Below, in pieces: positions 2,510 to 63,605 of a stretch of DNA of 64,000 nt. Every line of letters starts with the position of its first letter. Position 1 is the first letter of the stretch. The position numbers and the translations under genes were made by a program. The DNA comes from Paenibacillus ferrarius (lineage in GTDB: Bacteria; Bacillota; Bacilli; Paenibacillales; NBRC-103111), in contig NZ_MBTG01000008.1 in assembly GCF_002027705.1 (NCBI RefSeq), positions 124,001-188,000 on the forward strand, written 5' to 3'. Below the pieces are notes generated by a model. The model worked only from the letters and a program-made list of their open reading frames with translations. It was not told the DNA's origin and did not search any database.

Positions 2510-3211
2510 TTGAATGAAGCCAGGCAACTCGCTATTGAACATTTCTTAGAGCAGCATCTCGCTGTGCGAAAAGGAGAACGATTACGGAAGCTTAAAGAAG
2601 GGTTGGGTCACGGAGAAAAACTATTTCTGCAACAAGTTTGGTGGCCGGCATTCCGCAACTTTAACAACCTGCATCCTGAGTACGAAATCAAGGATTTCCG
2701 AGATGGTACCCGATTTCTAGATTTCGCTTTTTTTCATCATGCTTTAAAACTAGCTATCGAAATTGATGGTTATGGTCCTCATTCTTCACAGATAACCCGT
2801 CCCCAGTTTGCTGATCAGTGGATTCGCCAAAACCACCTCATCATCGATGGTTGGAAGATTCTACGTTTCTCCTTCGACGATGTTAAAGATCGACCCAGAA
2901 TGTGCGAACAAATCCTGCAGCAATTTATGGGGCGCTTCCTCGGTGGACGAATATTAGCAGATATAACCATCAACTACATTGAGTCCGAGATCATCCGCCT
3001 AGCTCTCTCTGGTAACGGCATAATTAGACCAAGTGATGTGAGCAACCTTCTCCACTTCGGTATAAAAAAATCATGTGATATTCTTAAATCCATGTCTGAG
3101 AAACGATTACTCAAGCCCGCCGGAACCGGAACAAAGTGTATTAGGAGCTACCGTCTGCATGAGCATACACAAGGCATCTGGGAAGAGCAAAATCAGCTTA
3201 GAGGTAGCTGA
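2510..3211 (+). CDS. DUF559/VSR-like PD-(D/E)XK endonuclease domain protein
   Basis: 233 residues. The central part has the order D71 (RFLDF), E84-I-D86 (LAIEIDGYGPH) and a following helix-strand with IRQNHLIIDGWKILRFS, which fits the PD-(D/E)XK nuclease fold of DUF559 and very-short-patch-repair proteins. Residues about 165-225 (GIIRPSDVSNLL..KSCDILKSMSEKRLL) look like a winged helix, so the protein probably binds DNA through that end. The start is TTG at 2510: GGGAGG lies 9 bp upstream, and the nearby ATG at 2503 opens only a four-codon frame. There is no methyltransferase or restriction partner next to it, so it is an orphan nuclease whose role is open. Its stop codon lies inside the first unit of the 3206 palindrome array. 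Confidence 0.75.
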   Translation: MNEARQLAIEHFLEQHLAVRKGERLRKLKEGLGHGEKLFLQQVWWPAFRNFNNLHPEYEIKDFRDGTRFLDFAFFHHALKLAIEIDGYGPHSSQITRPQFADQWIRQNHLIIDGWKILRFSFDDVKDRPRMCEQILQQFMGRFLGGRILADITINYIESEIIRLALSGNGIIRPSDVSNLLHFGIKKSCDILKSMSEKRLLKPAGTGTKCIRSYRLHEHTQGIWEEQNQLRGS

Positions 3212-3570
3212 GACTGCTTTTTTCACCCGCTCGGGGCGGGGAGGCGGCAGATTCGGCGCTGAGACTGCCTTTTCGGCAGGCTCGCTCTTCTTTTTCTCGG
3301 CTCAGGCCACTTTTGGGGGCTGAGACTGCTTTTTTCGCCCGCTCGGGAAGGGGACGCGGCGGATTGGGTGCTGAGACTGCCTTTTCGGCAGGCTCGCTCT
3401 TCTTTTTCTCGGCTCAGGCCACTTTTGGGGGCTGAGACTGCTTTTTTCGCCCGCTCGGGGCGGGGACGCGGCGGATTGGACGCTGAGACTGCCTTTTCGG
3501 CAGGCTCGCTCTTCTTTTTCTCGGCTCAGGCCACTTTTGGGGGCTGAGACTACTCTTTTCGCCGGCTCGC
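3206..3570. repeat. Palindrome array, family B: 112-bp tandem repeat, seven units
   Basis: Units begin at GAGAC 3210, 3261, 3322, 3373, 3434, 3485 and 3546, so spacing alternates 51 and 61 bp. Even-numbered units are hairpins (GAGACTGCC-TTTTC-GGCAGGCTC, with one conserved A/G mismatch); odd units are weaker versions. Three near-identical 112-bp copies show recent tandem expansion. The array fills the gap between convergent genes. Confidence 0.9.
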
Positions 3571-5899: not shown

Positions 5900-6982
5900 C
5901 TATTTTTCGAAAGGCAGCAAATGAATTTTATATTTATCCAAACCCACATACACGTTCCCTTTCAGGTAACCTCTCACACTAGGACTAGCATCATCAACAA
6001 TCCATTGCAGCGGTGATGCATTAATCCAATATCGAATCATTCGTCCCAAAAAGCTGCTTCTTTGTATTTCACCGCTCCACACATTATCACCAGCAACCGG
6101 ATCTTCACTGATTGTGATGCATTCCGGTCTAATCACTAAGGTCACCTGATCCCCTATGCGAAAGGAAGTGTAACTCTGATGCACCCTGAACACGTCCGAA
6201 CCGCATTTTACAAGCAAATCCTTATCTTCAAAAGCTGTTACTTCACCATCTATAAAATTGGCTGTCCCCACGAAATCGGCGATAAACTTGCTTTCCGGCT
6301 TAAAATAAATTTCCCATGGATCGCCCACTTGGCCGATACGGCCTTTGTTGAATACCGCAATCCGGTCCGAGATCGACAAGGCTTCATCCTGATCATGAGT
6401 GACAAAAATCGCGGTTATCCCTAAACGCTGCTGCAATTCTCTCAATTCATTCCTAACTTCGACTCTCATCTTAGCGTCCAAATTGCTGAGGGGTTCATCC
6501 ATTAAGAGGACCTGCTGCCCCATGATCAGCGCTCTGGCGAAGGCAACACGCTGCTGCTGCCCACCGCTTAGTGCTCTTGGCAATCTATCCTGCAAGCCCT
6601 GAAGCCCGAACATGCTGAGCATAGCGTCTACTTTCTCTTTGGCCTCTTGCTTGGACAGCTTCTGCAATTTCAAGCCATACGAAATGTTTTCTTGAACGGT
6701 CATATGCGGAAAAAGCGCATACTCCTGAAAAACTAACGGCGTATTCCGCTTGAACGGCGGCAATCCATTCACATTTTTGCCTTGTATCGAAATAGATCCG
6801 GCATCCGGCTCATAAAATCCGGCAATTAGACGCATCAGTGTTGTTTTGCCGCAGCCGCTTGGCCCAAGCAGCGTAGTGAAGCTGCCGACAGGAATATCAA
6901 GCGACACTTGGCTGATCGCCTCGAAATCACCAAAGCGTTTGGATACATTTGAAATTCGGATCATCGGTTCTTCTGTCTTCAT
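5900..6982 (-). CDS. ABC transporter ATP-binding protein (PotA/FbpC/PhnT type)
   Basis: 360 residues. Walker A GPSGCGKT (40-47), Q-loop Gln86, signature LSGGQ (138-142), Walker B with Glu163, switch His196, then a C-terminal TOBE domain (about 240-355). It powers the importer formed with the fused permease just upstream (12 bp away) and the lipoprotein at 8742. The ribosome site GGAGG precedes the ATG at 6982. Close families include iron(III), 2-aminoethylphosphonate and hexose-phosphate importers; the ATPase alone does not decide. Confidence 0.92.
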   Translation of the reverse strand: MKTEEPMIRISNVSKRFGDFEAISQVSLDIPVGSFTTLLGPSGCGKTTLMRLIAGFYEPDAGSISIQGKNVNGLPPFKRNTPLVFQEYALFPHMTVQENISYGLKLQKLSKQEAKEKVDAMLSMFGLQGLQDRLPRALSGGQQQRVAFARALIMGQQVLLMDEPLSNLDAKMRVEVRNELRELQQRLGITAIFVTHDQDEALSISDRIAVFNKGRIGQVGDPWEIYFKPESKFIADFVGTANFIDGEVTAFEDKDLLVKCGSDVFRVHQSYTSFRIGDQVTLVIRPECITISEDPVAGDNVWSGEIQRSSFLGRMIRYWINASPLQWIVDDASPSVRGYLKGNVYVGLDKYKIHLLPFEK

Positions 6983-15438: not shown

Positions 15439-15964
15439 TTGTGGTCGCCTACCCTTCTACCTTCATCATATATCACGAACCTTCACATTCCAACATCGTA
15501 TCATGAATTGCTCGTGTGGAACATGAATGTCAGATAAAAAAATAGGCATCTTCAAAAGAACCTATGGGGTTGGTAGTACCTCCATTTTACTAATGAGAGA
15601 CAGCCTTTTTGGCAGGCTCAGCTGACTTTCCCGCGGATGCAGCCTTTTTCATTAATAGCAGCTACTCTTTAACAGAGCCTAACAAAGCACCCTTTGGAGC
15701 AATCTCCCAGCTTCAGCAAGATGCCACCCAGCCACCGCCCTCAAGCTAAAGCCTGCATAAGTGCAGGCTTTTTGGCTCGAATCATGTGAAATCATCACAA
15801 AGCCTGCGATTATGCAGGCTTTGTGAGCTTTTCCTTCCTGAATTCGGAAAAAGCTCTCCAAAGGATGCATTATCGCAGGCTTTTCCCTATTTCCCCTATA
15901 TCCAAGAGAAAAAGATGCATATTTGCAGGAATGTACGAATCTGATGGACCTGAGGCCTGACTAG
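15439..15964. other. Long non-coding gap with repeats
   Basis: No gene accepted. Contains one degenerate family-B hairpin unit at about 15595-15622 (GAGACAGCC..GGCAGGCTC) and the four-unit family-A array at 15751-15930, which ends about 35 bp from the GNAT stop codon. Confidence 0.6.
15751..15930. repeat. Palindrome array, family A, four units
   Basis: Units start at 15752 (CCTGCATAAGTGCAGG), 15803 (CCTGCGATTATGCAGG), 15864 (GATGCATTATCGCAGG) and 15914 (GATGCATATTTGCAGG). Steps are 51, 61 and 50 bp. The first two are extended palindromes with flanking GC and AAA/TTT; the last two have one diverged arm. Confidence 0.88.
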
Positions 15965-22190: not shown

Positions 22191-22340
22191 TAAATATGTC
22201 AATATGCTGGCCTTATTTTTCTTCAAAAACTTTAAATTTTTTCACAATTTCTTGAAAATCCCCTTGCGATCACCTTAAGCTCCACGTTTCTCAGCGTATT
22301 CAGTTATCCTTGGCGGACTCGGAACGCTACTGGTTCAAAA

Positions 22341-22568
22341 GCCTGCAATAGTGCAGGCTTATCAGACAAAATCGCCTTAAAAAAGAAAAAACCTGCGAAT
22401 ATGCAGGAATTTCAAGTGTTTTTTTCCTAAAATCAACTTTCGGACTGAAAAAGATGCATTATCGCAGGAATTTGCGCTTGCTGGCCATTTCTAGCCGCAA
22501 AAAGATGCACAATTGCAGGAATTCACGCTCAACGGCTGCTTTAAGACACAAAAATGTACAACGGGAGG
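22341..22568. repeat. Palindrome array, family A, four units plus a degenerate fifth
   Basis: Units at 22342 (CCTGCAATAGTGCAGG), 22392 (CCTGCGAATATGCAGG), 22453 (GATGCATTATCGCAGG), 22504 (GATGCACAATTGCAGG), and a decayed one at 22553. Steps 50, 61, 51 and 49 bp. This array lies between divergent genes. Confidence 0.88.
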
Positions 22569-31751: not shown

Positions 31752-32002
31752 GCTGAGTCTGCGTTTTTCGCCGGCTCAGGTCCGATTTCCTAGGGTTTCG
31801 GCTTCTTCCGGCTTGAGACTGCCTTTTCGGCAGGCTCAGCGCGGGTTTGCAGCTTCTCTGCGTCTGAGACTGCGTTTTTCGCTGGCTCAGGTCCGCTTTG
31901 CTGGAGGTTGCGGCTTTTTCCGGCTTGAGACTGCCTTTTCGGCAGGCTCAGCGGGGGTTTGCAGCTTTCCTGCGTCTGAGACTGCGTTTTTCGCCGGCTC
32001 AG
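31752..32002. repeat. Palindrome array, family B, five units
   Basis: Units start at 31755, 31815, 31866, 31927 and 31978 (steps 60, 51, 61, 51). GAGACTGCC-TTTTC-GGCAGGCTC hairpins alternate with GAGACTGCG-TTTTT-CGCCGGCTC versions; the A/G mismatch is kept in both. Between convergent genes. Confidence 0.9.
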
Positions 32003-32017
32003 CAGACACATGTCACT

Positions 32018-32551
32018 CTAGTAGGCTGCGACACCCACGCGATCAATGATTTCTTGGATAAATGCGGGCTCATCCGCCGGTGTGCGAGACGTGATCAAAT
32101 TGCCGTCTACAACGACTTCCTTATCGACAAAAGTGCCCCCCGCCTCACGCACTTCGTCCGCGATACCGGGATAGGAAGTCAACGTCCTGCCTTGCAGCAG
32201 ACCCGCTTTTGCGAGGATTTGAGGGCCATGGCAGATTGCTGCGATCGTCGTACCTGCCTGATCAGCCTTTTGCACGAATGACCGCACATGTTCATTCTCG
32301 AGCAATACGGACGGTGACTTCCCTCCTGGGATCACAATTGCCACATAATCCCCAGCGTCCGCTTCTTCTGCAGCTAGATGCGAGGTATAGGAGATTGTAC
32401 CTTTTTTCCCGTTCAGTACTGCGCCTTTGTCCAGACTGATGATCACGACCTCGTTGCCATTTTGCGTTAAAGCCTCATAGGGGTTTTTCATCTCAGAGTC
32501 TTCATAGCCATCTGCCAATAGAAACGCAACCTTCTTAACCATCTGCTTCAT
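32018..32551 (-). CDS. DJ-1/PfpI-family protein
   Basis: 177 residues. Nucleophile elbow AAICHGPQ with Cys107-His108 and the partner Glu17 (DGYEDSE), the triad of PfpI/YhbO-type enzymes. These act on glyoxal-damaged proteins or nucleotides or as proteases; which applies here is unknown. AGAGGAG 9 bp before the ATG. Confidence 0.9.
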   Translation of the reverse strand: MKQMVKKVAFLLADGYEDSEMKNPYEALTQNGNEVVIISLDKGAVLNGKKGTISYTSHLAAEEADAGDYVAIVIPGGKSPSVLLENEHVRSFVQKADQAGTTIAAICHGPQILAKAGLLQGRTLTSYPGIADEVREAGGTFVDKEVVVDGNLITSRTPADEPAFIQEIIDRVGVAAY

Positions 32552-33310: not shown

Positions 33311-33349
33311 AGCAGCAGCCTGGTTCAATTGGGTTATTTAGAATTTGTA

Positions 33350-33426
33350 TTTTTACTGTTTACTGTTTACTGTTTACTGTTTACTGCTTACTGTTTACTG
33401 TTTACTGCTTACTGTTTACTGTTTAC
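33350..33426. repeat. Heptanucleotide microsatellite
   Basis: About eleven copies of TTTACTG (some TTACTGC) in 77 bp, ending 4 bp from the stop codon of the binding-protein gene. Copy number is likely variable. Confidence 0.92.
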
Positions 33427-33429
33427 CAT

Positions 33430-35019
33430 TCACCGTTTGCGATCCCGCTCCAGCGCTTGCTCCTGAATTTGAATCGCTCGATCAATTTGCAAAGCTTTGA
33501 TTTGACGGACATTGCGATCAAAAGTATCCACAGACTCAACGCCTAAAATTATTTTTAGCGACATTTCATCTACAAGCGTCGAAACGTCGTTCATAATAGA
33601 GGAAAGCTCTGCGTTCTCCAGCTCCGTTTTGGGAATTTGCGGCAGAATGCTGCGATCAACATCCGTGTCCGACCAAATCTGGACAGCTTTCTTCTGCTGT
33701 GGCAGCGTATACACTTGTTCCATATACCGTATATCCTGAACGAAAGGACCGAAATAGCTCGCACGACTGTACATCGCCAGCGCTTGCGCAGGCGCAAGCT
33801 TGTCCGGGTTCTGCAGAATGAGATTCGTGTAGGTCGGATACCCGTTAACCCATTTGTAACTGGTCCCCTCGACGCCAAAATTAAACAGCATGTGCCCCTC
33901 AGGCCCATAGCCGTAATCCAGCAGCTTCACCGCTTCCACCGCATGCTTGCTCTTGCTCGAAATCGCGACGCCTCCCGTCCCTTCGTAGGCATAGCTTCTT
34001 TGGCTGAATTTGGGCTTTTCACCTTTCTTCAGCACGGGATATGGCGCTGGCTCCAACTGAGCCTTCTTATCTTTCTCTTGAACAATCGGCTGCCATTTCC
34101 CCAGACCAGCGCCCGCATTCCAAATCGTTGCTCCGCTGCGACCCGACATCATGTTGGCATCCATGGTTTTCGTATCGACTGTTGCAATATTTTTATCGAT
34201 CAGACCTTCCTTATACCACTGGTGAAAAGTCTCCAGAAACTGCTTGTAACCAGGTTCGATCGCCCCGAATTTAACATGATCTTGGTCGAGATAAAATGAC
34301 TTTTTGATGCCGTAGGCGCCAACAAAACCCCCTCCTTCAATCCCAAAAAGAGCGCTGGGCACGCCAAGAAAAGTTAGCGGCGCTTCAATCCCCTTTTTCT
34401 CCTTAAAAGCTTGCAGTACCGTGTGCCATTCATCGATCGTCGTTGGCATCGCAAGCCCCAGCTCATCCAGCCAGTCCTTGCGAATGATCGGCCCTTGGTA
34501 GGTGCGCAGCTGATCATCGCCTCTAATAAAAGGAAAAACGTAATAGCTGCCATCATCGGTTTTGATCTGCTTGTCTATATTCGGATGCTCCTTCAAAAAT
34601 TTCTTCAAATTCGGCGCGTACTGATCAATTAATTCATTGAGCCGAATAATATAGCCATCATGAATCGCTTTGACGGGTCCGCCGGGAAACTGATTCCATT
34701 CGTATTCCATCATATCCGGCAAATCGCCGGAGGCCAGCAGCACGTTCATCGCTTCTTTCGCTTGATTCGCCGGAGGCTGCAGGAATTTGAGCTGGACGCC
34801 TGTTCGCTTCTGCCATTCCTGGAAGAAAGGAACATCCTGAAAGCTTGGCTTTACACTGCCGGCATTGCCGTTAAGCTCAGCCCAATAACTCAGCTTGGGC
34901 GCTCTTGATTGTGACTCGGAAACGGCGTCGATGTTCTCTTTGGAGTTTGAGCATGCTGTCAATAAACCGACCCCGATGGCCAACAACATGATCCCTATAT
35001 AAGCTTTTTGGCGCATCAT
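33430..35019 (-). CDS. Carbohydrate ABC transporter binding lipoprotein 1 (LplA-like)
   Basis: 529 residues. Lipobox LTAC (Cys23), then KLSYWAELNGN, QEWQKRTGVQLKFLQPP, LASGDLPDMMEYEW and YYVFPFIRGDDQ, the form of long LplA/YtcQ-type binding proteins of Paenibacillaceae. GGGAGG before the ATG. It is a clear paralogue of the 39491 gene (same order of motifs and near-identical C-terminal pattern VDEMSLKIILG). It lies after the regulator gene, so one importer may use two receptors. Confidence 0.9.
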   Translation of the reverse strand: MMRQKAYIGIMLLAIGVGLLTACSNSKENIDAVSESQSRAPKLSYWAELNGNAGSVKPSFQDVPFFQEWQKRTGVQLKFLQPPANQAKEAMNVLLASGDLPDMMEYEWNQFPGGPVKAIHDGYIIRLNELIDQYAPNLKKFLKEHPNIDKQIKTDDGSYYVFPFIRGDDQLRTYQGPIIRKDWLDELGLAMPTTIDEWHTVLQAFKEKKGIEAPLTFLGVPSALFGIEGGGFVGAYGIKKSFYLDQDHVKFGAIEPGYKQFLETFHQWYKEGLIDKNIATVDTKTMDANMMSGRSGATIWNAGAGLGKWQPIVQEKDKKAQLEPAPYPVLKKGEKPKFSQRSYAYEGTGGVAISSKSKHAVEAVKLLDYGYGPEGHMLFNFGVEGTSYKWVNGYPTYTNLILQNPDKLAPAQALAMYSRASYFGPFVQDIRYMEQVYTLPQQKKAVQIWSDTDVDRSILPQIPKTELENAELSSIMNDVSTLVDEMSLKIILGVESVDTFDRNVRQIKALQIDRAIQIQEQALERDRKR

Positions 35020-39490: not shown

Positions 39491-41113
39491 TTATCGTTTA
39501 TTAAACCGATCATTCGCCGCTTTTTGAATTTCAATCGCACGATCCAGCTTTAATGATTTCATTTTGGCTACATAGGAATCAAATTGATCCACTTTCTCAT
39601 TGCCCAGAATAATCTTCAGTGTCATTTCATCGACCAAAGTATTGACATCCGTCATAATTTTCGCGAATTCCGAGCTCTCTTCCGGTGTTGGCGTAATTGG
39701 CGGCAGACTGTACTTATTTGCATCTGTTTTCTTCCACACGTTCACAGCTTCCCGTTGGGTTGCCATTGTAAAGAACTGCTCGGCATATCGTTTATCCTGC
39801 ACGAACGGCCCGTTGTAACTGCCTCGTGTGTAAAGGGAAATTGCTTGCGCCGGCGCTAGTTTATCCGGATTTTTCAACAGCAGGTCCGTATATTTCGGAT
39901 ACCCGTTCTCTGAGTTATAGCTGACGCCTTCAGTTCCAAAGTTAAAAAACATATGGCCTTCATCGCTATAACCATAATCAAGCAATTGAACGGCAAGCGC
40001 CGGATCTTTCGCTTTCGTGGAGATTGCAACCATACCGCCGGAATCAAAAGCGGAAGCTCTTTGACCGAATTTAGGCATATCGCCTTTCTTTAAGACCGGA
40101 TAAGGTGCGGCTACCAGCTGCGCTTTCGGATCTTTGCCTTGAACAAGCGGCTGCCATTTGCCGATTCCGCCCCCGGCATTGCCAATACTCGCTCCCGTCG
40201 CTCCTGAAGCAAAACCGCCATCAAGCGCTTTGGTATCCGCGGTAGCAATGTTTTTATCCAGCAAGCCTTCTTGGTACCATTGGCGGAAAAGGGTCAAATA
40301 ATCCTTAAATCCGCTTTCCGCCGGGCCGAATTTAATATCGCCATTTTCAATGTAGAAGTTGCGATTCACGCCAAATGCGCCAAGGAATGCGCCATTGTAT
40401 GACTCATTGAAGAAACGCGGTTTACTCACGAATGACAGAGGAGCTGCTGCGCCTTTCTTCTCCTTGAATGCTCTTAATGCCGCAGTCCACTCATCGATCG
40501 TCTCTGGGACAGGCAACCCTAACTCATCGAGCCAGTCTTTGCGAATAATAGGTCCTTGGAATACTTGCAAGTACTCATCGCCCCGGATAAAAGGAAATGC
40601 ATAATAGCTGCCGTTATCTGTTTTGATTAACTTATCGACTTCTGGATGCTCTTTCAAATATTTCTTTAGATTAGGCGCGTTTTTATCAATCAGGTCATTC
40701 AACTTGAGAATGTAGCCATCCTTAATCGCTTTCTCCGGCCCCCCTGGGAAATCGTTGAGGAAATTGTACTCGATCATATCCGGCAAATCGCCGGATGCCA
40801 GCATCACATTAAGCGCTTCCTTTACTTGCCCTGTCGGAGGCGCTGTGAATTTAAGCGGAACTCCTGTTTTCTTCTGCCATTCTTGGAAGAACGGCACCTC
40901 GCTGTGCGATGTTTTTACACCGGTCAAGTTGCCATTCATCTCACCCCAGTAAGTAAGCGTCTTGCTCGTTTTTATCGGATACGATACTGCTGCAACCGCT
41001 GCCGGTGACTGCGTATCCGTATTCGTTGTTTTGGTTTCCGTTGGCGTGGAACAAGCAACCAGTGTTGTTCCCATCATCACTACGGCCACCGTAGAAGCTA
41101 ACATTTTCTTCAT
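39491..41113 (-). CDS. Carbohydrate ABC transporter binding lipoprotein 2 (LplA-like)
   Basis: 540 residues from the ATG at 41113 (GGAGGG 7 bp upstream). Lipobox LVAC (Cys21), then LTYWGEMNGNLTGVKTSH, FFQEWQKKTGVPLKF, LASGDLPDMIEYNF. Highly similar to the 33430 protein over its whole length, showing a duplication. First gene of the importer operon. Confidence 0.92.
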   Translation of the reverse strand: MKKMLASTVAVVMMGTTLVACSTPTETKTTNTDTQSPAAVAAVSYPIKTSKTLTYWGEMNGNLTGVKTSHSEVPFFQEWQKKTGVPLKFTAPPTGQVKEALNVMLASGDLPDMIEYNFLNDFPGGPEKAIKDGYILKLNDLIDKNAPNLKKYLKEHPEVDKLIKTDNGSYYAFPFIRGDEYLQVFQGPIIRKDWLDELGLPVPETIDEWTAALRAFKEKKGAAAPLSFVSKPRFFNESYNGAFLGAFGVNRNFYIENGDIKFGPAESGFKDYLTLFRQWYQEGLLDKNIATADTKALDGGFASGATGASIGNAGGGIGKWQPLVQGKDPKAQLVAAPYPVLKKGDMPKFGQRASAFDSGGMVAISTKAKDPALAVQLLDYGYSDEGHMFFNFGTEGVSYNSENGYPKYTDLLLKNPDKLAPAQAISLYTRGSYNGPFVQDKRYAEQFFTMATQREAVNVWKKTDANKYSLPPITPTPEESSEFAKIMTDVNTLVDEMTLKIILGNEKVDQFDSYVAKMKSLKLDRAIEIQKAANDRFNKR

Positions 41114-41359
41114 TCGTGGACCCTCCAATAGTAGGTTAGAAATTGTGAGATGCATCTCTCCCTTAAGACTACGGGAATTTAGCGGCCCTCGATATGAGCA
41201 AAAACCAAAACTGCATGATCATTTCAGCAGCAAGCACTGACGATTTCTCCAACTGGATGGATGAAATCGTGAATGTAAAGCAGGCTCAGCCTTCATTCGC
41301 GCTGCCTTGGCGAGTTTGCTATTGCGATCTAGCAGTCTTTTTCAGTTGGGAAGGCTTGA

Positions 41360-41600
41360 TTATCCCCGCACAGTGCATCCGTTTGGCGAAACAAATATTC
41401 GGCACGCTTCTTGAAAGGTGCGATCCAAAGCATACAGCCCCGTTTCCCCGCCAAGCAGGGCAGATTGCCCGGGAAATAATGGCACGCCTTCAGGCAGCCC
41501 CAGCCATAGCCCCAGCTCCAGCTGATCTGTCGTATCCTGCTTGCGGCCTGTGAACCAATACGCATTCTGATTTCACCAAATAAAAGTAAGTTACATACTC
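41360..41600 (-). pseudogene. Decayed protein-coding remnant
   Basis: A minus frame reads AYWFTGRKQDTTDQLELGL, LGLPEGVPLFPGQSALLGG and ETGLYALDRTFQEACRIF before a stop at 41360; the upstream part (VEYVTYFYLVKSE) continues in another frame. Protein-like composition but with a frame break and no start. Family not recognised. Confidence 0.4.
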
Positions 41601-41668
41601 AACTCCAAGGCAGCATGATATAGCCCAGTGCTCTTCGGAAGCAATGAACTCAGTCGGATAACAGAAAA

Positions 41669-41695
41669 AGAAGGCCGGACTCACGTCCGCCTTCT
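41669..41695. terminator. Hairpin terminator
   Basis: AGAAGGCCGGAC and GTCCGCCTTCT with a TCAC loop, one mismatch; weak T-tract on the + side, A-tract (AGAAAAAG) serving the minus side. Confidence 0.6.
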
Positions 41696-41777
41696 CTTGT
41701 CAGCCCTTATAAAATTCACCCGAAGCCAGCAGCTTCCATTCGCCAATTATGAAACGTCCAAGGAGAATCGTTACCAA

Positions 41778-41957
41778 AAGGAACTATGATCCGCTAATTG
41801 ACTCAAAATCGGATATTTGCAGCTGAAAGGGAAGTACGATCCCTTATTTCCCCACTTTACCGTGATATTACGGCAAATCAGACAAATTAGCGTACCATAG
41901 TTCCGTCTGACTAGCCAAATGGCTCGTTGAAGCACGAATAAGGGAACACAGTTCCCC
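41778..41957. repeat. Palindrome array, family C, four units
   Basis: Palindromes GGAACTATGATCC (41780), GGGAAGTACGATCCC (41829), GTACCATAGTTCC (41892) and GGGAACACAGTTCCC (41941). Centres 41786, 41836, 41898 and 41948, so steps are 50, 62 and 50 bp, the same geometry as families A and B with another sequence. Confidence 0.85.
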
Positions 41958-42027
41958 TCCAAGGGGTTCATGTGAGCCGAATTACGCTTAAGCCCGATGA
42001 ATCCAGCAGGATTCCGGCTGATTACAC

Positions 42028-42486
42028 TTAAATACCAAAGCCGCTCATCAATGGCATAATAAATTTAAGCATCCCCATGCCAAATTTCATGAACCCGCCA
42101 ATGTTCCCCAGGAAGCCTCCGCCTCCGCCCGTAGCAGCGCCAGCTCCAGCTCCGGCCCCTGCTCCAGCCCCGCCGCCTAGACCGCCCAATAGTCCGCCCA
42201 GTCCACCGGAACCTCCACCTCCGAACATACTGAGCAAGCCGCCTAAACCGGAGATGCTTGCTTTAGCTTTGCTCGAATTCTTCGGAAGTTTTTTCTGACT
42301 TTTCACACCTTCAAACAGCACCTCTTGACCTTGCACATCACGAACCATTCCGTAGTAGCAGCTTCCATCGGTTAAAACGATGACGACCGGCACCTTATTC
42401 ATAACCTGACTAATTTGTGCAGTCGCCTGTGTGATTTCCATGTTCCCAGAACGTCTTTTCTTTGACTTGTAAGTTCTCTTCTTCAT
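42028..42486 (-). CDS. LSm/Hfq-like domain protein with glycine-rich tail
   Basis: About 152 residues. Basic start KKRTYKSKKRR, then NKVPVVIVLTDGSCYYGMVRDVQG..VLFEGVKS, which has the strand pattern of an Sm-like fold, then a low-complexity region (Gly-rich, five GA repeats) and a hydrophobic end FMKFGMGMLKFIMPLMSG. ATG at 42486; AGAGGAA is 13 bp upstream. May be an RNA-binding or spore/surface protein; neither is shown. Confidence 0.6.
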   Translation of the reverse strand: MKKRTYKSKKRRSGNMEITQATAQISQVMNKVPVVIVLTDGSCYYGMVRDVQGQEVLFEGVKSQKKLPKNSSKAKASISGLGGLLSMFGGGGSGGLGGLLGGLGGGAGAGAGAGAGAATGGGGGFLGNIGGFMKFGMGMLKFIMPLMSGFGI

Positions 42487-42691
42487 GTAACGAAACACTT
42501 CCTCTCATCGCACTCGTCCCTTCTAGGCAGTGTATGATACTGTTTTGGCATTTGACTGAGCAGGTATGTAGATAAATGAAAAAAGGCGCTTTAGACTCGC
42601 CAAACATGGCCATTCACACAATTCCTTGTCACAAAAGCAAAAACTGCCAAGACAGCGTTATCGCTGCCTTGACAGTTCATTCAGTCTACTC

Positions 42692-45657: not shown

Positions 45658-45839
45658 CTGCCTCACCTCCTATTCACGTTCTCATCTTTGCTGAAATCGT
45701 ATGTCAATTATGCTTTGTTGTAAAGATACTCATGTTAAAATTTAGAATAGCCTCAAACAGGTTCTAGTTGATCGTGATGCAAGCTATTTGTCCGGAATCG
45801 ACACAGCATCAGCGAAAAGGTGAATAGGTTGGAGTAAAA

Positions 45840-46020
45840 ACCTGCGATAATACATCCTTTTTCATAGAAATCGCATGAAAATCTGGAAATCCCTGCAATA
45901 ATGCAGGAATCCCCAGATTTTCCGCCCTATAATCAGAGTATAGTCTCAAAAACCTGCACAATCGCAGGAATTTACCACAAATGGCTGCTTCACCAACCAA
46001 ATGCCTGCACAATCGCAGGT
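45840..46020. repeat. Palindrome array, family A, four units
   Basis: Units at 45841 (CCTGCGATAATACATCC), 45892 (CCTGCAATAATGCAGG), 45953 (CCTGCACAATCGCAGG) and 46004 (CCTGCACAATCGCAGG). Steps exactly 51, 61 and 51 bp. Confidence 0.9.
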
Positions 46021-46130
46021 TTACACAAACACAGCCCCACAAAAACAACATCTCAACAGTTCAGTGATGCCAAACCCGTCCCTTCTTCCCTCCATTTCAG
46101 GATTTCATCTGGAAAATCTTATGCCTAACG

Positions 46131-52415: not shown

Positions 52416-52492
52416 GCCTTCTACTCTCTTGCCATGTCATTGGCAAGAGATAACAACACGGCCAAAAGACTGTCAGCGCATTTGCAAGCCAA

Positions 52493-52672
52493 ACCTGCAA
52501 AAATGCATCCTTTTGAGCTCAAAATAAGCTGTATCACCAAAAGCCTGCAGGAATGCAGGCTTTTGAGGCATTTGCTTACCTATCGAGCAAAAAAACAAAA
52601 AATTCCTGCACAATCGCAGGAATTTCCATATTTCACCTCGGTTTATCCCGGGAAGCCTGCATTATCGCAGGC
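52493..52672. repeat. Palindrome array, family A, four units
   Basis: Units at 52494 (CCTGCAAAAATGCATCC), 52544 (CCTGCAGGAATGCAGG), 52605 (CCTGCACAATCGCAGG) and 52655 (CCTGCATTATCGCAGG). Steps 50, 61 and 50. Between convergent genes; the last unit ends about 6 bp from the nucleotidyltransferase stop codon. Confidence 0.9.
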
Positions 52673-52676
52673 TTTC

Positions 52677-53483
52677 CTAGCGATTAGCATCCAGATGAAT
52701 ATATTGAAGCAAGGCTACCAGATCCGTCAATCGCTCTTTTTGCGATAAATAATAACGACTTGGCTCGAGCCGCTTTATCGCGATAGCTTCTTGTATAAGT
52801 CCGTGCCATTTTTCCGGCAGCTGCTGAATACCGTAGTTTCCTGCGCCAATTTTGCTGGTTATGTCCCGTTCTTTTAACGTATACCATTGTCGCAACATTC
52901 CCAGTGTACACCACTCGATCGCTTTATCAAGCTGTTCGATATAGGTTACGTCCTCCAACACGTTGTCGAACGATAATTGTTTCTCTAAGCGGTCTATCCA
53001 ATTAACCCAGTAGCTATTCAGGTTGCCTTTGACATATGCGAGCAGCGAAGCAAGGTCTATCTCGTAATGGAATGCTACAGCCGAGCCATAGATGCGAATA
53101 CCATGCTTTTTCAAAATCCACCAAGTAATCGGATTAATATCGGCTCCAGAGCCATCGGTATGCAGCCGTTTATTGAAATAAGCAACGAAAGTGTTCATTT
53201 CATTTGGCTTTTTCCCTACGTCTTCGAGGAGGATGTAAGCCCCCATTATATCTGCATTTGGAAGCTCTCTTTCAACCTCTTCATGTGCCGCCATAATGGA
53301 CTGGATCTCTAACTGCGTAAGCGGTTTGCGAACAATGGCTACAAAGTCGATATCACTGGTACCCTCTATATAGTCATTTAACGCAACCGAGCCGTACAAA
53401 TACACGGATTCAACGCTCGATGTGCGGGCCTCTAAAGCTTCGCACAACCGATTCATCGTTTTTTCGACTATTTCAGGCAACAT
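52677..53483 (-). CDS. AadA-like nucleotidyltransferase (DUF4111)
   Basis: 268 residues. Nucleotidyltransferase motif YLYGSVALNDYIEGTSDIDF with G-S and D-x-D metal ligands, then a helical DUF4111 domain as in aminoglycoside (9)/(3'')-adenylyltransferases. ATG 53483 follows AGGAGG by 8 bp. Real resistance activity is not implied by the sequence alone; sequence is only distantly AadA-like. Confidence 0.82.
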   Translation of the reverse strand: MLPEIVEKTMNRLCEALEARTSSVESVYLYGSVALNDYIEGTSDIDFVAIVRKPLTQLEIQSIMAAHEEVERELPNADIMGAYILLEDVGKKPNEMNTFVAYFNKRLHTDGSGADINPITWWILKKHGIRIYGSAVAFHYEIDLASLLAYVKGNLNSYWVNWIDRLEKQLSFDNVLEDVTYIEQLDKAIEWCTLGMLRQWYTLKERDITSKIGAGNYGIQQLPEKWHGLIQEAIAIKRLEPSRYYLSQKERLTDLVALLQYIHLDANR

Positions 53484-53614
53484 AGCAGCCACCTCCTTCC
53501 GGGTTCAAAGCTCATTCTTAAGCCACATTATAAGTGGAGCGAGCCTCCCGATAAAGAGAAAAAAGCCTGCTGACTTTTTCCAGTTTTAGTTTGAAGATTC
53601 CTAACATGCAAATC

Positions 53615-63411: not shown

Positions 63412-63605
63412 CGCCTGAGCCTGCTTTTTTCGCCTTCTCAGCAGCTTGTTGCACCTTTTGTTCCGCCGAGACGGCTTTTTTGGCTGGCTCAGCTTGCTTT
63501 CTTGCTCGAAACTTCGTTTTCTGCACCTGAGCCTGCTTTTTTCGCCTTCTCAGCAGCTTGTTGCACCTTTTGTTCCGCCGAGACGGCTTTTTTGGCAGGC
63601 TCAGC
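63412..63605. repeat. Palindrome array, family B, four units
   Basis: Units start at 63417, 63468, 63529 and 63580 (steps 51, 61, 51). Two near-identical copies of about 80 bp lie 112 bp apart. T-rich loops again on the + strand; between convergent genes. Confidence 0.9.

Follow-up and report, generated by a model that had tools for sequence, protein, structure and literature searches.

The palindrome arrays described here occur eight times, as three copies of family A, four of family B and one of family C, in the window, a stretch of 64,000 nucleotides that corresponds to contig C8, positions 124001-188000, of the source genome (G000; 9.18 Mb, 73 contigs). The pattern formed by the four palindromes of an array is not due to chance, and an A/T rhythm of 10.1 bp along the whole element, which the first-pass annotation had missed, underlies their spacing. 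With moderate confidence, we read each array as a double-stranded DNA element of ~190 bp that would act as a bent or wrapped platform for a candidate binding protein. The computed part of this reading is that four imperfect palindromes, each with its conserved half facing outward, stand ~5, 6 and 5 turns apart around a dyad, that A/T patches lie in phase with them, and that the arrays keep their place between two sister species, retain A/T where the phase peaks and lie at the 3' ends of genes.

Anatomy of the arrays

The arrays of the window and the parts of its family C array are listed in Table 1. The C array lies between two minus-strand genes: it stands 67 bp beyond the 3' end of the gene for a 156 aa protein without a Pfam match (42028-42498), and the gene downstream of it (39491-41155) encodes a solute-binding protein. 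Its centre-to-centre distances, read directly from the sequence, are 50/62/51. The first-pass annotation had placed the centres at 41786, 41836, 41898 and 41948; the first three are confirmed, whereas the fourth is one base low, direct reading giving 41949. Among the four sites only P4 is a perfect palindrome. The A/T phase of this array reaches a z of 5.3 near the element centre and of 5.7 at best (10.2 bp period).

Table 1. Palindrome arrays of the window and parts of the family C array (window positions)
Feature	Position	Strand	Remarks
Family A tandem array (GAGACTGC..GCAGGCTC)	3207..3563	no strand	spacing 51/61/51/61/51
Family B array (CCTGC-6-GCAGG), four sites	15747..15934	no strand	
Family B array, four sites	22337..22524	no strand	
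Family A tandem array	31753..32021	no strand	
Family C array, whole element, ~188 bp	41774..41961	no strand	four sites, A/T phase and conservation edges
Site P1 of C array, GGAACTATGATCC	41780-41792	+	centre 41786; conserved half faces outward
Site P2 of C array, GGAAGTACGATCC	41830-41842	+	centre 41836
Central linker of C array	41843..41891	no strand	includes dyad at ~41867
Site P3 of C array, GTACCATAGTTCC	41892-41904	-	centre 41898; mirror orientation
Site P4 of C array, GGAACACAGTTCC	41943-41955	-	centre 41949; mirror orientation
Family B array, first site degenerate	45836..46024	no strand	
Family B array, four sites	52489..52676	no strand	
Family A tandem array	63414..63605	no strand	

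The families differ in their consensus, which is CCTGC-6-GCAGG for B, GGAAC-3-GTTCC for C, TTGGA-5-TCCAA for D and GAGxCTGCC..GGCAGGCTC for A, the last of which forms longer tandems at 51/61/51/61. Family A may be related to B, as the CTGC/GCAG core common to both suggests. Family E, found in the sister species G009 from A/T phase alone, consists of two palindromes in alternation at 51/62/51/62/51. A candidate family F (G039, L134:17239) has the A/T phase and no clear 51/61 spacing, and was left out of the family count.

Among 33 aligned C arrays, the outer half of each site is kept (GGAACTA at P1 and P2, the mirror sequence at P3 and P4), the inner half is variable, and conservation drops to about zero beyond ~6 nt outside the outer sites. 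These edges delimit an element of ~190 bp with the orientation -> -> <- <- around the dyad. For B, orientation was assigned from the alternative arms of each array, and the side bias seen there is thus partly a product of construction. The inner flanks of the C sites show a further regularity: P1 resembles P3 and P2 resembles P4, 112 bp apart in each case, without matching mirror partners. Between copies of one family, linker identity is no more than 37-50%, though length and A/T phase are kept. Aligned on the sites, the linker profiles of B and C correlate at 0.22-0.31, whereas 2000 column permutations gave a standard deviation of 0.063 and a maximum of 0.19.

Several other features were recorded. 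The gene for an aminoglycoside adenylyltransferase-domain protein (AadA_C, NTP_transf_2; 52677-53492, minus strand) ends directly beside a B array. Simple short tandem repeats at window positions 33338-33442 and at L033:9619-10586 (TTTACTG; TGTAGCT-like) are unrelated to the arrays. At L183:8900-9350, a B array stands beside a single-site unit that recurs in tandem every ~60 bp, with more units in G000 than in G009.

A common spacing ruler and its A/T phase

Scoring of symmetric palindromes with mismatch penalties masked the spacing signal, and scoring of similar palindromes revealed it. Over 851,118 bp of the source genome, similar palindromes lie most often 50/51 (39 pairs), 112/113 (27 pairs) or 61/62 bp (14 pairs) apart, whereas the median over all distances is 1 pair. 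The highest count at any other single distance, 10 pairs at 27 bp, is due to other repeats, and so are the peaks at 54 and 108 bp. The same 851 kb contain 33 B, 16 C and 5 D arrays with at least three of the four sites. A scan of 2.05 Mb from eight genomes, with a tolerance of ±2 per site and with eight stretches (G028, G034, G039) chosen for their pair hits, detected arrays with all four sites on a 51/61/51 ruler, 40 of them in family B, 18 in C and 4 in D. The control rulers 41/71, 56/56, 61/51, 46/66, 66/46 and 36/76 gave no full array in the same DNA. Within the limits of a detector that allows ±2 per site, C arrays measure 50-51 / 61-62 / 49-51 (45 arrays) and B arrays 51 or 50 (one 53) / 61 (60-62) / 51 or 50 (68 arrays).

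Exact palindromes in contiguous stretches were then counted as partnered if another site lay 51, 61, 112 or 163 bp away (±2). This applied to 85/90 palindromes in B, to 6/7 in D and to 12/15 in C, where several of the stretches came from contigs previously known to carry C palindromes; control palindromes with scrambled arms had a partner in 0/13 cases. The first-pass annotation had proposed that families of different sequence share one spacing, and this has held up: B, C, D, tandem A and the new family E all lie on one ruler. A check for C copies lacking the 50/62 spacing left the three lone exact palindromes, around which 170 bp of DNA hold no other site.

When A/T content is folded about the dyad, B and C both peak near 0, 10, 20, 31, 41, 50, 60, 70, 82 and 91 bp. 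Most peaks reach 0.85-0.99, those of C at the site centres and the outer end being lower (0.66-0.73), and the phase counted outward from the central dyad is identical in the two families. The folded profiles yield a period of 10.10 bp for B (52 arrays; bootstrap 95% 10.10-10.12) and 10.14 bp for C (33 arrays; 10.12-10.16), and the linkers alone 10.04 and 10.10 bp, respectively. Per-array mid-linker coherence, calculated without folding and with 16 bp masked on each side of the sites, is 0.93 in B and 0.98 in C, versus 0.13 and 0.26 in controls. With a period of ~10.1 bp, the 51/61/51 ruler comes close to 5/6/5 helical turns, and 112 bp to ~11 turns.

The phase is also specific in period. Positions with z>5 amount to 4.2e-4 at 10.2 bp, versus 0 to 8e-6 at five other periods. 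In the window, the threshold of z>4.3 marks nine clusters, of which eight are the arrays and the ninth is a weak stretch at 6753-6825; at control periods, 0, 0, 0 and 3 positions pass it. Overall, 198 loci exceed z 4.6 at 10.2 bp, against 8 on average at control periods. Among these, 85 loci lie away from known arrays, and the best 60 of the 85 include many variants of A, B or C and some coding DNA. D arrays show a weaker phase (median z 3.8, n=7). The excess at 10.2 bp is absent from the stretches analyzed in G015, G019, G029, G003, G032, G035, G037 and G045 (480 kb; 20-120 kb each).

Spacing and period vary between species. Judged by match lengths, site pairs are 49-50 bp apart in most G028 hits and 52 bp apart in most G034 hits. 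In G028, the best fit is at 9.9 bp in 3/3 arrays (z 4.3-4.9), with low scores at 10.2 bp (2.5-3.6), and in G034 one of two arrays fits best at 10.5 bp, the other being level between 10.2 and 10.5 bp (L128, L129, L131, L132 and L133 for both genomes). Two C arrays of G024, 3/4 arrays of G039 and a C array of G001 fit well at 10.2 bp. In these few arrays, the A/T period seems to follow the site spacing from species to species, and the shared feature seems to be the number of turns, or A/T steps, between sites more than an exact number of bases. An effective period of 9.9 to 10.5 bp between species is not predicted by a fixed helical repeat, which counts against a wrapped element.

Placement, distribution and stability of the arrays

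The arrays are located at the 3' ends of genes. In G000 and G009, with tandem neighbours counted apart, 62/78 arrays are centred in gaps of a simple ORF map, 27 of them convergent, 34 co-directional and 1 divergent; the remaining 16/78 lie inside naive ORF calls of at least 120 aa. Available gaps of at least 250 bp number 58 convergent, 185 co-directional and 49 divergent, so that the placement of the arrays has a p of 4e-8. The first 17 stretches of contig C1 of G000 (C1:1-340000) contain no B, C or D array.

Among 60 genomes, the own genome included, the B pair pattern occurs in 12 and the C pair pattern in 13, and reversed control patterns in 0/60. Since 48/60 genomes lack B pairs and 47/60 lack C pairs, the system is dispensable in the genus. 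Some arrays are present in other genera of the order (G034, G039). Alicyclobacillus ferrooxydans carries tandem arrays of GGAAC-GTTCC in which 125/126 neighbour distances below 400 bp are 51 or 52 bp and one is 62 bp. This sample comprises 16 loci among the matches listed, some on one contig and possibly overlapping, and only the further repeats are informative because each locus was fetched for one ~50 bp pair; linkers differ in the three loci inspected. In a Euryarchaeota MAG (L301:1180-1500), some ten near-perfect palindromes, no two with the same stem, form a chain at distances of a few tens of bases.

Replication polarity was rejected as a general rule, with 28 concordant and 20 discordant B arrays in G000 and G009. 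C arrays with a callable orientation are concordant with replication in 13/15 cases, which makes polarity a trait of subfamilies. In G024, a C subfamily of ~350 bp on contig C1 (L138-L157) has at least 44 copies, counted by eye among the matches listed, all oriented with replication. Among the matches listed, copies between 0.287 and 2.92 Mb are on the minus strand, those between 2.93 and 7.10 Mb on the plus strand, and minus returns at 7.75 Mb. GC skew at the fetched loci is positive to 2.91 Mb (one value of -0.008) and negative from 3.07 to 5.8 Mb; it is about zero at 6.45 Mb and has turned positive by 7.75 Mb. By eye and among the matches listed, C pairs appear sparse round the inferred origin (~7.4 Mb).

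For comparison with the sister species G009, four segments of G000 and the window segment were matched by homology alone. In these segments, 11/12 B and C arrays of G000 lie inside or in line with syntenic G009 matches, and the twelfth, at window position 45836, falls at a contig end. Within this comparison with a single sister species, no empty array site was found among the 12 (one uncovered), and no array-sized empty site was seen among the listed indels of the pair. One array (L050) has no first site in G000, while its G009 counterpart (L115) has it. A stretch of 192 bp in G009 (L113:12670-12861) is missing from G000 between homologous flanks; it is not an array, and we presume a likeness to a c-di-GMP riboswitch.

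A first count of substitutions in the 12 orthologous arrays gave 12/470 in arms, 31/234 in loops, 135/1121 in linkers and 406/5572 outside, with the arm figure flattered by the choice of G009 stretches by arm patterns and of G000 arrays by good arms. In the half-arrays not needed for this choice, arms have 9/230 and linkers 129/1050 substitutions; compared to a one-lineage expectation of 6.1% (half the linker rate), p is 0.1. The window array, whose ortholog was located via its flanks and without an arm pattern, has 1/39 changes in arms, 14/94 in linkers and 66/419 outside, too few to be read alone. Constraint on the arms in place is therefore suggestive. The linkers, which played no part in the choice, changed from A/T to G/C at 15/474 A/T bases in phase peaks, 25/329 between and 17/139 in troughs (p 1e-4), whereas the same count outside the arrays is flat (52/1048, 63/1032 and 51/1009). 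Measured against all outside DNA, the retention of A/T at peaks is marginal (p 0.04).

Spacing is well preserved. The window array has the same three intervals in G009, and the central interval, which lies outside the fetch pattern, agrees within 1 bp in 12/12 orthologous arrays. Half-intervals not needed for the choice agree within 1 bp in 10/12 cases, one being off by 2 and one lost via a 40 nt indel. Indel events are about equally frequent in linkers (13/1517 columns) and outside (57/5599 columns). They differ in size, 13/14 inside arrays being 1-2 nt and 31/57 outside being at least 3 nt, a difference that stems partly from the tolerance of the detector. The earlier claim that spacing, not sequence, is selected is thus borne out for spacing, given the one ruler and the central intervals. 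Its second half was too strong: copies of a family agree best in their arms, though constraint on these in place is suggestive.

Palindromic repeats of bacteria are commonly explained as mobile hairpins. In one rival reading, the arrays would descend from ancestral 190 bp copies of a miniature mobile element that were spread by a transposase, and their spacing would be inherited, not selected. The sharp boundaries at the outer sites, the pair hits, which in some species run into the hundreds per genome, and the replication-oriented G024 subfamily, near whose strand changes GC skew changes sign, are consistent with such an origin, which gains some weight from the corrected arm count. We nevertheless regard it as unlikely, as families with unrelated arms share one ruler, linkers diverge between copies while keeping length and phase, and the arrays covered in G009 all occupy the same place. 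Furthermore, the Y1 transposase of the REP/RAYT type (PF01797) has 0 matches in G000 at E<=0.001, while 5/14 control genomes match. Past spreading and present function are compatible, not exclusive.

Alternative readings and known systems

A quite unlikely alternative is that the phased G/C pattern marks BIME-2-like sites at which DNA gyrase wraps DNA at gene 3' ends. According to the part of PMC6379681 available, E. coli gyrase favours G/C content that varies in phase as well as the DNA downstream of transcribed loci, and BIME-2 elements are enriched in its cleavage sites; an excerpt of PMC12324340 reports a 10-11 bp G/C preference for the gyrases of three species including Bacillus anthracis. 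These preferences, the location of the arrays and the one G034 array with a best fit at 10.5 bp favour the gyrase reading. However, the Topo-Seq motif given in that part of PMC6379681 has a period of 10.75 bp and a length of 130 bp, with two 47 bp arms and a 36 bp non-periodic centre, whereas the arrays have a period of 10.1 bp over a length of ~190 bp, and the dyad does not interrupt it. At 10.75 bp the window arrays score 0.3-2.3. In addition, gyrase has no need of CCTGC or GGAAC arms and, as far as the excerpted sources go, occurs in nearly all bacteria, whereas the arrays are patchy.

Very improbable is an action at the RNA level, with the palindromes as hairpins, terminators or a structured 3' UTR. 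The fold of the window array does beat 200/200 shuffles (z -3.39), with P1 paired with P3, A and T runs flank the B sites, and a 3' location would suit such elements. Yet 53 B and 33 C arrays hold no compensatory changes within sites (largest z 2.6 for any column pair), and oriented B arrays tend to have G-T closing pairs at P1/P2 and A-C at P3/P4, so that neither strand offers four good hairpins. No C site was called a terminator in a scan of 41100-42600, outside of which lie the B sites with their short T runs, and the window has no Rfam match at gathering score. A helical A/T phase in linkers would also be meaningless for RNA.

The chance that the arrays are debris or targets of group II introns is next to negligible: three tandem C arrays of G024 (L157:1810-3400) do lie beside a degenerate group II intron (RF02003, 84.5 bits; domain V-VI match to RF00029 at 31.8 bits, below gathering score) and a G028 intron (L130) ends ~140 bp from an array, but maturase matches do not track arrays (G018, 175 B pair hits on both strands and 0 matches; G039, 44 and 0; G015, by contrast, 15 matches without a pair hit), the Rfam threshold is reached at 1/20 G024 loci, and intron sequence is absent at nearly all arrays scanned. 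The maturase fragment at L157 carries a stop codon, and the arrays there may have hitchhiked with the intron.

Under the protein-platform reading that we prefer, each palindrome would bind a dimer of a sequence-specific protein, and four such dimers would sit on one side of the helix. The phased A/T patches could allow the DNA to curve around the complex, by analogy with rotational phasing in a nucleosome or a gyrase wrap. Separate palindrome families might be read by separate proteins, or by differing specificities of one protein family, on a common scaffold. Lying between transcription units, the arrays would probably serve local DNA topology or the folding of the nucleoid. Besides the species-dependent period, points against this reading are the weaker phase of D, the likeness in C of P1 to P3 and of P2 to P4, indels about as common in linkers as elsewhere, the stretch and the first site that two arrays have lost, the marginal A/T retention relative to outside DNA and the absence of the pair patterns from most genomes.

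A bolder form of this proposal, which we put forward tentatively and hold to be somewhat unlikely, sees in the arrays a bacterial counterpart of nucleosome-positioning DNA. Elements of ~190 bp, wrapped at ~10.1 bp per turn by a putative family of sequence-specific proteins, would carry several unrelated palindrome codes on one scaffold between transcription units of some Paenibacillus genomes, with 51 bp tandems as the version in Alicyclobacillus. Since palindrome families without common arms share one geometry, with intervals of roughly five and six turns and A/T in helical phase, an architecture at the level of DNA can be tested in culturable bacteria. If this is true, the genomes of some bacteria have sites for bending or wrapping built in by the hundred at the ends of their genes, which would bear on supercoil handling and on the folding of bacterial chromosomes without histones.

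Among the known kinds tested, the arrays are rated as outside all, though near BIMEs and gyrase wraps. This rating follows from the transposase, tag and compensation tests, which speak against REP/REPIN elements, from the period and centre of the gyrase motif, from a search for histones (the histone fold PF00808 matched 0/60 genomes and 3/14 control genomes) and from the poor support for introns, terminators and mobility by empty sites. In open PubMed Central papers, a scope that leaves subscription papers and most preprints aside, we recognised no description of such arrays.

The arrays share with REP, BIME and REPIN elements short extragenic palindromes in many copies, a location at gene 3' ends and preferred doublet distances, which are 71 and 110 bp for REP doublets of P. 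fluorescens in the portion of PMC3116915 at hand. They differ in having four sites instead of two, several unrelated families on one ruler and A/T phasing at ~10.1 bp. The GTAG or CGTC tag at the palindrome foot, as defined in an excerpt of PMC3733652, is found in none of the B and C consensus sequences of site and flank, and the compensatory changes by which REP/REPIN hairpins are recognised were not found either. The gyrase motif is similarly long, symmetric, downstream of genes and marked by phased G/C that is read as wrapping (PMC6379681, in part), but has no fixed palindromic arms, and its period and centre differ from the 10.10-10.14 bp of B and C in G000 and G009. The same part of that paper likens the gyrase motif to nucleosome-positioning DNA. 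Our arrays resemble nucleosome-positioning DNA in their ~10 bp A/T phase and differ from it in carrying palindromic arms at set turns. In nucleosome-positioning DNA, A/T recurs in helix phase, every ~10 bp, over a stretch the size of one wrap.
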